Source of the DNA: Humibacillus xanthopallidus
GTDB lineage: Bacteria > Actinomycetota > Actinomycetes > Actinomycetales > Dermatophilaceae
Assembly: GCF_006717145.1 (NCBI RefSeq)
Contig: NZ_VFQF01000001.1
Coordinates: 558,001-622,000 of the forward strand
DNA length: 64,000 nucleotides
Reading direction: 5' to 3'
The notes under the pieces are model-generated. The model ran no database searches and was not told the DNA's origin. It was given only the letters and a program-made list of their open reading frames with translations. A program made the translations under genes and the position numbers. Positions within the stretch are counted from its first letter, which is position 1, and each line of letters starts with the position of its first letter. Positions 57,550 to 61,587 of the stretch are shown here, one piece after another.

Positions 57550-58674
57550 ATGGACGCCGCCGAGCTCGAGTGGATCGGGTGGACGACACCGATCACCACC
57601 TCGCTGGGTGCAGCGGTGGCGGCCTCGGACTTCGGCGGTGCCACCGTGGCCTGCCGACAGCACATCCTGGCTGACACGATCCCGATCTTCACGCCGTTCG
57701 TCGAGGCAGGTGCCCGGGTGCGGCTGGCGCCGTGCAACCCCGACAGCACCGATGACCGGACCGTCGCCCACCTGCGGTCGATCGGCGTCGAGGTGCAGGC
57801 CCGATCAGGGATGAGCGTCGGCGAGATGGAGGAGTCGCTCGCGTGGCTCGTCAGCGAACCGTCAGATGCCTTGTGCGACATGGGCGGTGACCTGATCGCC
57901 GCAGCCGCTGCCGCCGGCCACCGGCCCACAGGGGCACTCGAGGCGACGACCACCGGGCTGCATCGGCTCGACGGGCTGGAGCTCCCGTTCCCCGTGCTCG
58001 ACTGGAACGGCATCGCGCTCAAGAACCTGATCCACAACCGTCACCACGTCGGTGTCGAGACGTGGCCCGCCTTCACCTCCATCACCGGTCTGGCACTCTA
58101 CGGCCGCGAGGTCGTCGTGGTCGGGTTCGGACCGGTGGGTCAGGGCGTCGCCGCTCGCGCCCGCGATCTCGGAGCCGTCGTGACCGTCGTGGATCTCGAT
58201 CCGGTCCGCCTCGTCCAGGCGCGGCACGACGGATGTCGTGTGGCCGAGATGTCCACGGCGCTGCGCACGGCAAGCGTGGTCGTCACAGCCACGGGTTTCG
58301 ACGGCGTGCTGGGGGAGCAGCAGCTGTCGCAGGTCGCCGAGGGTGCGATCCTCGTCAACGTCGGCCACAGTGACCGTGAGATCGACGTCGACTGGCTCGA
58401 CCGTCATCCGATCACCCCGATCCGACGGCATCTCGATCGTTACGAGATCGACGGTGGCCCGGTCTACCTGCTCAACCGCGGCAGCCTGGTCAACCTCGCG
58501 ACCGGTCTCGGGATCGCTGCTCCCCAGCTGTTCGACCCGTTCGCGGCCGTCATGCTGCTCGGGCTCGATGCCATCCTCAGCGGGCAGGCGGACAACCTGC
58601 CGAACGGCCTGCAGCCCTACCCGCAACATCTGGAGGCGCGCATCGCGCGAGCCCTCGCCAGCGGCACCACGTGA
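57550..58674 (+). CDS. S-adenosylhomocysteine-hydrolase-like protein, short form
   Basis: 374 residues, compared with about 430-490 for true SAHH. Family blocks appear in order: CNPDSTDDRTVAHL, LCDMGGDLIAAAAA, LEATTTGLHRL, the NAD-binding VVVVGFGPVGQGVAARARDLGA, then VTATGFDGVLGEQQL and NVGHSDREIDVDWL. The conserved NDS..K segment reads WNGIALKNLIHNRHHVG, and the usual N-terminal adenosine-binding residues are changed. It may act on a different nucleoside-thioether or be a non-canonical dehydrogenase. The ATG at 57550 has no strong ribosome site. No methionine-cycle gene is next to it. Confidence 0.75.
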   Translation: MDAAELEWIGWTTPITTSLGAAVAASDFGGATVACRQHILADTIPIFTPFVEAGARVRLAPCNPDSTDDRTVAHLRSIGVEVQARSGMSVGEMEESLAWLVSEPSDALCDMGGDLIAAAAAAGHRPTGALEATTTGLHRLDGLELPFPVLDWNGIALKNLIHNRHHVGVETWPAFTSITGLALYGREVVVVGFGPVGQGVAARARDLGAVVTVVDLDPVRLVQARHDGCRVAEMSTALRTASVVVTATGFDGVLGEQQLSQVAEGAILVNVGHSDREIDVDWLDRHPITPIRRHLDRYEIDGGPVYLLNRGSLVNLATGLGIAAPQLFDPFAAVMLLGLDAILSGQADNLPNGLQPYPQHLEARIARALASGTT

Positions 58675-58724
58675 CCACGTCGCTGGAGTTCTCGAGGGAC
58701 CGTTCGGGGCCTCTCGATCTCGCG

Positions 58725-58753
58725 TGGACAGAACATCACCCTCTGGCTAGTTT
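58725..58753 (+). promoter_or_regulatory. Sigma-70-type promoter of the permease operon
   Basis: TGGACA (58725-58730) and TAGTTT (58748-58753) are separated by 17 bases, close to the TTGACA/TATAAT consensus. Transcription would begin near 58760, giving a 5' leader of about 105 bases that holds a hairpin (GGGGGC-GCGCT-GCCCCC, 58770-58786) and a small open frame. Confidence 0.6.
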
Positions 58754-58811
58754 GGGCTGATCGTCGTGCGGGGGCGCGCTGCCCCCTCGGACCGATCGAG
58801 AGGGTTTCGCC

Positions 58812-58865
58812 ATGCCTCGTTGCCTGCACCTGAACCTGCTTGCCAGCCCGTCTCGGAGGGCCTGA
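58812..58865 (+). CDS. 17-residue leader peptide upstream of the permease
   Basis: ATG at 58812, preceded by GAGAGGG at 7 bases, encodes MPRCLHLNLLASPSRRA and stops at 58863-58865, one base before the permease GTG. The permease ribosome site (GGAGGG) lies within the last codons. The layout fits a translated leader that controls or couples permease expression. The sequence resembles the short R/H/L-rich leader peptides found before transport and sulphur genes in actinobacteria. Too short for domain evidence. Confidence 0.55.
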   Translation: MPRCLHLNLLASPSRRA

Positions 58866-58866
58866 C

Positions 58867-60684
58867 GTGTCCGGCGGCGGCCCGGAGCTGAAGAAGGCCC
58901 TCAGCCAGCGTCAGCTGACGATGATCGCCATGGGCGGCGTCATCGGGGCGGGCCTGTTCGTCGGGTCCGGCACGGTCATCAAGGCCACCGGCCCGGCAGC
59001 CTTCCTCACCTACGCCCTGTGCGGCGTCCTCATCATCATGGTGATGCGGATGCTCGCCGAGATGGCGGTGGCGAACCCCTCGACCGGCTCCTTCGCCGAC
59101 TACTCGCGCAAGGCGCTCGGGGACTGGGCAGGCTTCTCCGTCGGCTGGCTCTACTGGTACTTCTGGGTCATCGTCGTCGGCTTCGAAGCCGTCGCGGGGG
59201 CCAAGGTCATCAACTTCTGGTTCCCCGGCGTGCCGACATGGGTGCTCAGCCTCGTCCTCATGCTCCTCATGACGGGCACCAACCTCATCTCGGTCTCCTC
59301 GTTCGGTGAGTTCGAGTTCTGGTTCGCCGGCATCAAGGTGGCGGCGATCATCGTCTTCCTCGTCTGCGGAGGACTCTTCGTCTTCGGCATCTGGCCCAAC
59401 GCCGACCTCGACTTCAGCAACCTCACCGCCCACGGTGGCTTCTTCCCCAACGGCGGCATCGCGGTGACAGCAGGGGTCGTCACGGTGATCTTCTCGATGG
59501 TCGGGGCCGAGATCGCGACCATCGCGGCCGCCGAGTCCAACGACCCCGAGCGGGCCGTCTCCAAGGCCGCCAACTCGGTCATCACGCGCATCGCGATCTT
59601 CTTCGTCGGCTCGATCTTCCTGCTCACGGTCATCCTGCCGTGGAACTCCTCCACGCTGGAGGCGTCACCGTACGTCGCCGCCTTCGAGCAGATGGGCATC
59701 CCCTATGCCGCTGACGTCATGAACGCGGTCGTGCTCACCGCGGTCCTGTCGTGCCTCAACTCCGGCCTCTACACGGCGTCGCGGATGCTGTTCGTGCTGT
59801 CCGCGCGCCGTGAGGCTCCCGCCTCGATGGTGTCGGTCAACTCCCGCGGCGTGCCCGTCGTCGCGATCCTCGCCTCGTCGGTCGTCGGCTTCCTCGCGGT
59901 CATCATGGCGGCCGTCTCGCCCGACACCGTCTTCTCGTTCCTGCTCAACTCCTCCGGCGCGGTCATCCTCTTCGTCTACCTGCTCATCGCCATCTCGCAG
60001 ATCATCCTGCGGTACCGCACCGACGCGTCGACGCTCAAGGTGAAGATGTGGCTCTTCCCGGTGCTCTCGATCGTCACGGCTCTGGGCATCGTGCTCGTGC
60101 TGGTCCAGATGGGCCTCACCGAGGACGTGCGCATCCAGCTCGTCCTCAGCCTGCTGTCCTTCGGGGTGGTGCTCGTCCTGTTCTTCATCAACAAGGCCCG
60201 CATCGCCCGGCTCCCGGAGCGGGTCGCGCCGCAGCACACGGGCGATGCCCGGCGTGTGCTCGTGCTCGCCAACCAGACCCTGGAGTCCGACGAGCTCATC
60301 GCCGAGCTCCAGCGCATCGACGCCCAGGGCGCCGCCACCTACTACGTATGCGTGCCGGCCAGTCCCGTCGAGACGGGCACCGCCGCGACCCATGGCGCCG
60401 TCTCCGTCAGGGACGCGACGACCGAGGCTGCGCAGCGACGGCTGGACCGGACGCTCGAGTCCCTCACGGCTCACCATCTCGAGGCGACCGGCGGTGTCGG
60501 AGACCAGCGACCGCTGCGGGCTCTGCGGGCGGCGGTGACGGAGTTCGACCCCGACCAGATCGTCATCGTGACGCTCCCTGCCGCCGACTCGATCTGGCAG
60601 CGCTTCGAGGTCGTCGACCGCGCAGCCGAGCTCGGCCTGCCGGTCACGCACGTCGAGGCCGCCTCCCTCGTGCCCGCGGTGTGA
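58867..60684 (+). CDS. APC-family amino acid permease with C-terminal USP-like domain
   Basis: 605 residues. Residues 15-440 form about twelve membrane helices with the APC signature GGVIGAGLFVGSG in helix 1 and FSMVGAEIATIAAAES in helix 6; the pattern is near GABA/lysine-type permeases (AAT family). The last 150 residues (RRVLVLANQTLESDELIAELQ onward) are soluble and resemble a nucleotide-binding or USP-like domain that could regulate transport. The GTG at 58867 has GGAGGG 6 bases upstream. The stop is directly followed by the USP gene, so they form an operon. Confidence 0.9.
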   Translation: MSGGGPELKKALSQRQLTMIAMGGVIGAGLFVGSGTVIKATGPAAFLTYALCGVLIIMVMRMLAEMAVANPSTGSFADYSRKALGDWAGFSVGWLYWYFWVIVVGFEAVAGAKVINFWFPGVPTWVLSLVLMLLMTGTNLISVSSFGEFEFWFAGIKVAAIIVFLVCGGLFVFGIWPNADLDFSNLTAHGGFFPNGGIAVTAGVVTVIFSMVGAEIATIAAAESNDPERAVSKAANSVITRIAIFFVGSIFLLTVILPWNSSTLEASPYVAAFEQMGIPYAADVMNAVVLTAVLSCLNSGLYTASRMLFVLSARREAPASMVSVNSRGVPVVAILASSVVGFLAVIMAAVSPDTVFSFLLNSSGAVILFVYLLIAISQIILRYRTDASTLKVKMWLFPVLSIVTALGIVLVLVQMGLTEDVRIQLVLSLLSFGVVLVLFFINKARIARLPERVAPQHTGDARRVLVLANQTLESDELIAELQRIDAQGAATYYVCVPASPVETGTAATHGAVSVRDATTEAAQRRLDRTLESLTAHHLEATGGVGDQRPLRALRAAVTEFDPDQIVIVTLPAADSIWQRFEVVDRAAELGLPVTHVEAASLVPAV

Positions 60685-60687
60685 GTG

Positions 60688-61587
60688 ATGACGATCGTCG
60701 TCGCCTACACGGCCCAGGACAGCGGTAGGTCCGCCCTCGAGCTGGCGAGCGTCCTGTCGCGCTCGACCGGCGAACCGCTCCTCGTCGCAGTCGTCGTCAC
60801 GACGCCCCACGCGGCAGGGGCCCCGGAGTTCGTCGACGGCAACTACCTCGGCCCGATGACCGACTGGGGGAGCTCCGTGCTCGACCAGGCCCGGGCCAAC
60901 CTGCCGGGGGACATCGCTGCGACCTTCGTGGTGCGCCAGGCGTCGTCCATCCCCCGAGGGCTGCTCGAGCTCGCGGAGGAGAGCGGGGCCTCGGCCGTCG
61001 TCCTCGGCTCGTCGAGCAAGGGGTCGCTCGGCCGGATCTCCCTCGGCAGCGTCACGGACCGGCTCGTCCACTCGGCCCCGCTGCCCGTGGTCCTCGCTCC
61101 GCTCGGCTACCGCGCCGGGCCGGCCTCGCGCATCCGCCGGGTCAGCATCGGCTACGGAGGGTCGAAGGACCTCGCCCACACCGCCGAGGCCGGGGCGGGG
61201 CTCGCCGAGACGGTCGGCGCGAGCCTTCGGGTCGTGTCCTTCGCCGTCCGGCCGCCCAAGAGGCTCTACGGAGGCGTCGAGGAGTCCGCCGACGAGCTGG
61301 TCGTCGACCGCTGGGTGGTCCGCATGAAGGAGGAGCTCGTCACACAGCTGACGGCAGCGGACGCCGGCCGGCTCGGTGACCGGCTCGCGCGGTCGCTCGT
61401 CGTGGCTGAAGGGGCGACGTGGAGCCAGGCGGTCTGGGGCGTCGACTGGAACGACGGTGACCTCCTCGTCGTCGGTCCCAGCTCGTCAGCTCCCGCCGCG
61501 CGCCTGTTCCTCGGCTCCCGGGCCTCCAAGATCGTCCGGTCGGCGCCGGTTCCCGTCTATCTGGTCCCTTCCTCCAGGTCCCACTGA
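60688..61587 (+). CDS. Tandem universal stress protein
   Basis: About 299 residues with two USP domains (1-145 and 150-295). The first has the ATP-binding motif GSSSKGSLGRISLGSVTDRLVHSAPLPVVL. The second is degenerate at the glycine-rich loop (VGPSSSAPAARLFLGSRASKIVRSAPVPVYLV). USPs bind ATP and modulate other proteins. The start ATG at 60688 (or GTG at 60685) is 3 bases or less after the permease stop. Together with the USP-like tail of the permease this suggests control of the transporter. Confidence 0.85.
   Translation: MTIVVAYTAQDSGRSALELASVLSRSTGEPLLVAVVVTTPHAAGAPEFVDGNYLGPMTDWGSSVLDQARANLPGDIAATFVVRQASSIPRGLLELAEESGASAVVLGSSSKGSLGRISLGSVTDRLVHSAPLPVVLAPLGYRAGPASRIRRVSIGYGGSKDLAHTAEAGAGLAETVGASLRVVSFAVRPPKRLYGGVEESADELVVDRWVVRMKEELVTQLTAADAGRLGDRLARSLVVAEGATWSQAVWGVDWNDGDLLVVGPSSSAPAARLFLGSRASKIVRSAPVPVYLVPSSRSH

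Follow-up and report, generated by a model that had tools for sequence, protein, structure and literature searches.

A seventeen-codon leader of drifting sequence probably delivers ribosomes to the start of an amino acid permease gene

What is the role of a seventeen-codon reading frame that ends a single base before the start of an amino acid permease gene? The question is raised by a locus in the genome of Humibacillus xanthopallidus (contig NZ_VFQF01000001.1), which we studied within a stretch of 64,000 nucleotides (hereafter the window). The initial annotation proposed ribosome-mediated control of the permease, with Leu, His, Arg or Cys as the candidate sensed amino acid. Our comparative analysis suggests that the frame is a translational-coupling leader cistron that works independently of its peptide – a reading we consider probable – and that its role is probably the delivery of ribosomes to the transporter start rather than the sensing of an amino acid. 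The parts of the locus, in window coordinates, are these:

58725–58730, forward strand: −35-like hexamer TGGACA (from the sequence and the upstream regions of relatives)
58748–58753, forward strand: −10-like hexamer TAGTTT (from the sequence; spacer of 17 bases after the −35)
58770–58786, forward strand: GC hairpin GGGGGC-GCGCT-GCCCCC in the 5′ UTR (from the sequence; folds in the window's 51-base stretch)
58798–58804, forward strand: leader Shine-Dalgarno-like (SD) site GAGAGGG (from the sequence; highly conserved in 13 relatives)
58812–58865, forward strand: 17-codon leader cistron MPRCLHLNLLASPSRRA, from ATG at 58812 to TGA at 58863–58865 (present at 13 of 13 orthologous loci)
58855–58859, forward strand: permease SD, GGAGG, within the leader frame (from the sequence)
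58867–60684, forward strand: amino acid permease, GABA-permease-like, APC type, 605 residues, GTG start at 58867
60685–61587, forward strand: universal stress protein family gene, directly 3′ of the permease (PF00582, E 3.9e-26)

The basic arrangement described in the initial annotation is confirmed in the sequence: the frame comprises seventeen codons, has its own SD and ends one base before the permease, a single C separating the TGA from the GTG at 58867. The permease ribosome site is indeed overlapped by the leader, GGAGG lying inside the frame. A ribosome site for the leader is likewise present; to call it strong was an overstatement, given a core of four bases, GAGG. From the position of the −10-like hexamer, transcription would start near 58760, and the leader 5′ UTR would comprise about 50 bases.

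The permease matches PF00324 (E 2.8e-117) and is nearest to the GABA permeases, yet its score against TIGR01773 (544.6 bits) is under the cut-off of that family (678.1), and its substrate is thus not settled. Its GTG start is backed by relatives. Named permease matches include Terrabacter sp. Root85 (91% identity) and a Nostocoides MAG (85%). Some 160 residues extend past the transporter domain: the Pfam match stops at residue 443 of 605, and many more distant permease matches align only to about residue 445. The universal stress protein gene, in which the Usp match falls in two stretches, lies 3′ of the permease in 12 of the 13 loci described below; in the other, L116, the contig ends inside the permease. 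Directly 5′ of the leader promoter is an SAH hydrolase-like gene ending at 58674 (its TIGR00936 score of 174.2 bits falls short of the cut-off, 497.6, in a scan that took in 57745–58674). Within the approximately 1.5 kb upstream of the 13 permease loci, this gene was found at the window's own locus and at none of the other 12.

Evidence that the frame exceeds what chance would produce came from relatives. Of 186 genomes of the family, 51 contain a permease match with an E value no higher than 1e-100, in a search that scored up to seven candidates per genome and may therefore have overlooked weak or additional matches. Loci with permease identity of 80% or more occur in 13 genomes, the source genome included. 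Two further upstream regions, those of L075 and L007, are identical to those of L091 and L096, respectively, and each pair was counted once; the G019 locus is split across two contigs, and L116 retains only 250 permease residues. At all 13 loci a short frame with its own ribosome site has its stop next to the downstream start. The frame is 17 codons long in 12 loci and 18 in one (L091); it begins with ATG in 12 and GTG in one, each with an SD-like site, and its TGA is at −4, leaving a gap of one base, in 13 of 13.

The same layout is present at 13 of the 89 permease starts examined and at none of the other 76, among which looser arrangements occur in L011 (43 codons, stop at −14) and L008 (33 codons, stop at +1). 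For this comparison the start was set, close to its expected position, at whichever ATG or GTG had the best SD; loci with an incomplete upstream stretch or lacking such a codon were excluded, and a frame was counted if it had 6–45 codons and an SD. The 13 loci were also used to build an 82-position sequence model, which therefore matches them by construction. It recovers all 13 with E values between 6.8e-18 and 4.1e-10, and the best of the remaining matches across the 186 genomes, at E 4.7e-4, is far weaker. Some match at E 0.05 is present in 88 of the 186 genomes, and those listed outside the 13 loci are all at 4.7e-4 or weaker, the search having taken up to 24 candidates per genome under stricter filters, so that weak or additional ones may have escaped it. 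The two best of these weaker matches (G018 and G045) are, by eye, the starts of ordinary longer lipoprotein-like genes, and a motif scan of the loci for CxHxN-like peptides at permease starts returned nothing like the leader. As far as these searches of the family's genomes reach, the leader element belongs to this permease alone.

While the relatives argue that the frame is beyond chance, the window alone is weak evidence. A loose search across its 56 predicted genes for a short SD-bearing frame that ends near a start gives five, of which only the leader has a stop that precedes the start of the next gene. In the whole source genome a loose pattern gives 236 matches, compared with 63 for a reversed control, and the match with zero mismatches is the leader locus itself.

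Conservation of the leader in relatives had been put forward in advance as a test, and the outcome is divided: the frame is kept, the peptide is not. The 13 peptides have little in common except a Met-Ser-Arg-like start and a GCC TGA-type end. At the nucleotide level, the parts that are kept are codons 2–3 (mostly TCT CGT) and the end, with its SD and GCC TGA; codons 4–12 vary at all three positions (mean entropies of 1.39, 1.39 and 1.24 bits). In four close pairs of loci 47 of 120 interior sites differ, against approximately 22% at permease four-fold sites (p 1.4e-5). The 18-codon frame of L091 is excluded from both the per-codon table and these gap-free pair comparisons. The interior appears to diverge at least as fast as four-fold sites; we do not claim adaptive change, because codon bias may slow the latter.

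Upstream of the leader the picture is mixed. By a scripted count, 12 of the 13 loci, the window's own among them, have a −35/−10 pair with a spacer of 17 or 18 bases at 83–88 bases 5′ of the leader start; L094 is the locus without it. The −35 is TGGACA in seven of these 12 and one change from it in five, and the −10 place reads TAnnnT in 12 of 13. The promoter reported earlier is thus present and common to most loci, but "near-consensus" overstates it: the −10 matches TATAAT at three of six positions, and a generic scan of 58400–59100 by E. coli-type criteria gave no promoter site. In L097 a palindrome-like sequence, GTAACGGTCGTTAC, overlaps the −10 element of the permease promoter, a variant occurs in L096, and the sequence is possibly an operator. 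The GC hairpin is likewise real in the window, but as a conserved structure it does not hold up, being missing from the consensus fold of the 13 sequences. Three stretches from the leader region of the window do not fold better than their shuffled versions (z from +0.87 to +1.63), and no Rfam family, riboswitch or leader, matches within 58600–58950 up to E 1.

The predicted cost of opening the permease start (−16 to +12) has a mean of 20.0 kcal/mol in the 13 loci. In 12 same-family relatives that lack a leader it is 13.1 kcal/mol (one-sided p 2.2e-4; like all p values given here, this one ignores shared ancestry). Among these 12, five have no SD found and uncertain start calls; for the seven that bear an SD the mean is 14.4 kcal/mol (p 0.005). 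A chosen set of 18 leaderless relatives, which includes L008 and L011 with their looser short frames and has L098 in common with the set of 12, gives 15.0 kcal/mol, and the mean is 14.7 kcal/mol for 34 SD-bearing starts in the window, among which the permease's own is expected. Part of the burial is explained by base composition, the start region having a GC content of 75% in leader-bearing loci and 62% in leaderless ones. Compared with composition-matched shuffles, permease starts cost on average 3.8 more to open, the difference being positive in 11 of 13, with L091 and L094 falling below their own shuffles; the corresponding averages are −1.1 for leaderless relatives (p 0.002 against the leader-bearing loci) and −2.3 for the leader starts. 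In 12 of 13 loci, opening the permease start costs more than opening the leader start (paired one-sided p 0.0013), with L089 reversing the trend and L091 a near tie. The permease start is therefore predicted to be buried as a rule, by sequence flanking it on the 5′ or the 3′ side. Alongside the raised predicted opening cost, no conserved sequestering fold was shown among the relatives, in which the pairing partners differ. We also considered whether the leader interior is selected to bury the permease start, and rejected this, real values being mid-range among shuffled interiors (mean fraction of shuffles at least as high, 0.57).

How, then, is a conserved frame with a variable peptide to be explained? 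The location of the leader before an amino acid permease, together with the four Leu and three Arg of the window peptide, speaks for an amino-acid-sensing leader, in which ribosomes stalling at Leu, His, Arg or Cys codons when that amino acid runs short would alter permease translation. We nonetheless give this explanation very little credence. Beyond the Arg codon at position 3, no Leu, His, Arg or Cys codon is kept in place or number across the 13 relatives, and the numbers of the four residues vary without pattern (Leu 4, 1, 0, 1, 0, 0, 1, 1, 3, 1, 2, 0, 0; Cys 1, 0, 0, 2, 0, 2, 0, 1, 1, 1, 0, 2, 0). The free divergence of the interior, the lack of conservation of the GC hairpin and the failure of a generic scan of 58400–59100 to find a terminator-like site all stand against sensing. 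An attenuator leader peptide is not supported, neither conserved codons for a sensed residue nor a terminator or competing conserved hairpins being found, and so was a sequence-specific arrest peptide, given that no conserved peptide motif was found among the 13 relatives; both models are disfavoured because codons 4–12 vary and the residue counts are patternless. Of the control originally envisaged, what survives the comparison is a short leader that probably acts via ribosomes. The frame might instead be a by-product, the conserved bases representing a 5′ UTR element, an SD and a spacer, and the permease initiating at its own SD without help from the leader. High-GC DNA is rich in open frames, and the TGA falls inside the SD-to-start spacer. 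Stops are absent from the 209 codons of the leader frame, and they are equally absent from the 196 of one other frame (the third has 8 in 196), so that stop-codon depletion does not discriminate as a coding test; the probability of finding no stop is only 0.03 even were the rows independent. More telling for selection on the frame, we suggest, is its length: the only net change among 13 frames is three bases, and the 5′ UTR alignment contains several gaps of one or two bases. In neutral simulations of the interiors along the permease third-position tree (400 runs per setting at scales of 0.5, 1.0 and 1.5, with assumed indel ratios), all 13 kept phase and stayed open in 30%, 17% and 13.5% of runs when indels were disallowed; at 0.02 indels per substitution the share was 0.5–5.5%, and at 0.05 or 0.1 it did not exceed 0.25%. 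The conservation of start and stop codons comes on top. Survival of the frame is thus unlikely once indels reach 0.05 per substitution, and an ATG or GTG with a spaced SD, a whole-codon length and a TGA at −4 persist in 13 of 13 loci despite the scrambled interior. The layout is kept even where the permease SD is, by eye, weaker or less well placed (L090–L092, L095 and L096), as expected if coupling can replace direct initiation. A by-product is, on this evidence, quite improbable.

A more elaborate alternative combines coupling with a switch. The leader SD (CGAGAGGG) can pair with codons 2–3 (UCUCG), and translation of the leader, and through it of the permease, would be decided by a protein, small RNA or metabolite, in the manner of CsrA at iraD ORF27. 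Conservation of codons 2–3 extends to the wobble base (TCT in 9 of 12, CGT in 9 of 12), the pairing is the consensus fold, and 89.3% of cells pair, compared with 44–60% when slid. The consensus energy, however, is only −2.25 kcal/mol, and two-sided changes are few, affecting three cells (reached by 7 of 500 shuffles) in two pairs (reached by 43 of 500). By eye, L097 has lost the pairing, and it is weaker in L001 and L089; the average leader start is predicted to open more easily than its shuffles; and sequence constraint from the SD and start alone could account for the pairing. The pairing may therefore reflect a switch, or may be the mere imprint of two conserved initiation signals, and the addition of a switch to coupling strikes us as unlikely. 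The same doubt attaches to a broader proposal, that of a natural, peptide-independent gate of 17 codons which evolved in a single actinobacterial lineage along with a structured permease start; a ligand or protein would regulate how ribosomes enter at the leader (SD versus codons 2–3), and the interior would drift faster than synonymous sites.

Under the coupling mechanism that we favour, a ribosome would load at the leader's own SD, read 17 codons and stop at the TGA one base before the permease start. In terminating, it would cover and melt the structured ribosome site of the permease, whose GTG or ATG would then be used for initiation by that ribosome or a neighbour. That the peptide is dispensable and the frame maintained is suggested by comparison of the loci. 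From these patterns we infer translation of the leader, dependence of the permease upon it and a re-initiation route. Independent initiation of the permease is also possible, because most of the 13 loci have a permease SD of their own.

The plan has both engineered and natural parallels. In bicistronic design cassettes a dispensable short leader frame brings ribosomes to a structured downstream start; those cassettes are engineered, whereas the leader described here is natural and conserved. A close case with experimental proof is iraD ORF27 of Escherichia coli, for which Park et al. 2017 (PMC5574718) describe coupling shown by experiment and regulation by CsrA. As they portray it, ORF27 resembles our leader in being a short frame with its own SD directly 5′ of the gene, in the burial of the gene's ribosome site in RNA structure (predicted in our case) and in a stop at the start codon, the coupling shown there being what we propose here. 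It differs in having 27 codons and a stop that overlaps the start, compared with 17 codons and a one-base gap. Among mycobacteria, Shell et al. 2015 (PMC4633059) describe coupled small ORFs whose placement and coupling are, in some cases, conserved while the peptide is not, and suggest that the coupling is under stronger selection than the peptide. Our leader is similarly actinobacterial, joined to the next gene and, like some of theirs, without a conserved peptide. Unlike it, the mycobacterial frames in that account are on leaderless transcripts with RTGA overlaps; here there is an SD, an inferred 5′ UTR of some 50 bases and a TGA-N-RTG junction, and the comparison extends over 13 loci of nearly fixed length. 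The uPPE2–PPE2 pair of Mycobacterium tuberculosis (PMC11260477) offers a further likeness, PPE2 being reported to depend on a short upstream frame mainly through termination and re-initiation, a dependence that we propose for our permease. According to that source, uPPE2–PPE2 is situated behind a B12 riboswitch, with an AUGA overlap and a PPE2 without an SD, features unlike those of our locus, where 58600–58950 has no Rfam match. Actinobacterial attenuator leader peptides, cysteine-rich and others, are also short frames before metabolic genes (PMC4633059); in the cysteine-rich leaders, as presented there, the peptide and its Cys codons are kept, and here neither is. Among the open-licence literature matches listed, none describes a leader at this permease or in these genera. 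The plan is thus already known from iraD ORF27 and the mycobacterial small ORFs; this further instance shows, as judged from sequence, SD-led entry, a one-base gap and near-fixed length across 13 loci.

Delivery of ribosomes by short upstream frames is, in the words of a 2025 review (PMC12548453) as we render them, a proposed mechanism that may be widespread. The leader locus provides a clean comparative case, in which 13 loci keep what coupling needs and little of what a functional peptide would need. It also carries a caution: short leaders before amino acid permeases should not be taken as sensors unless their relatives have been checked.
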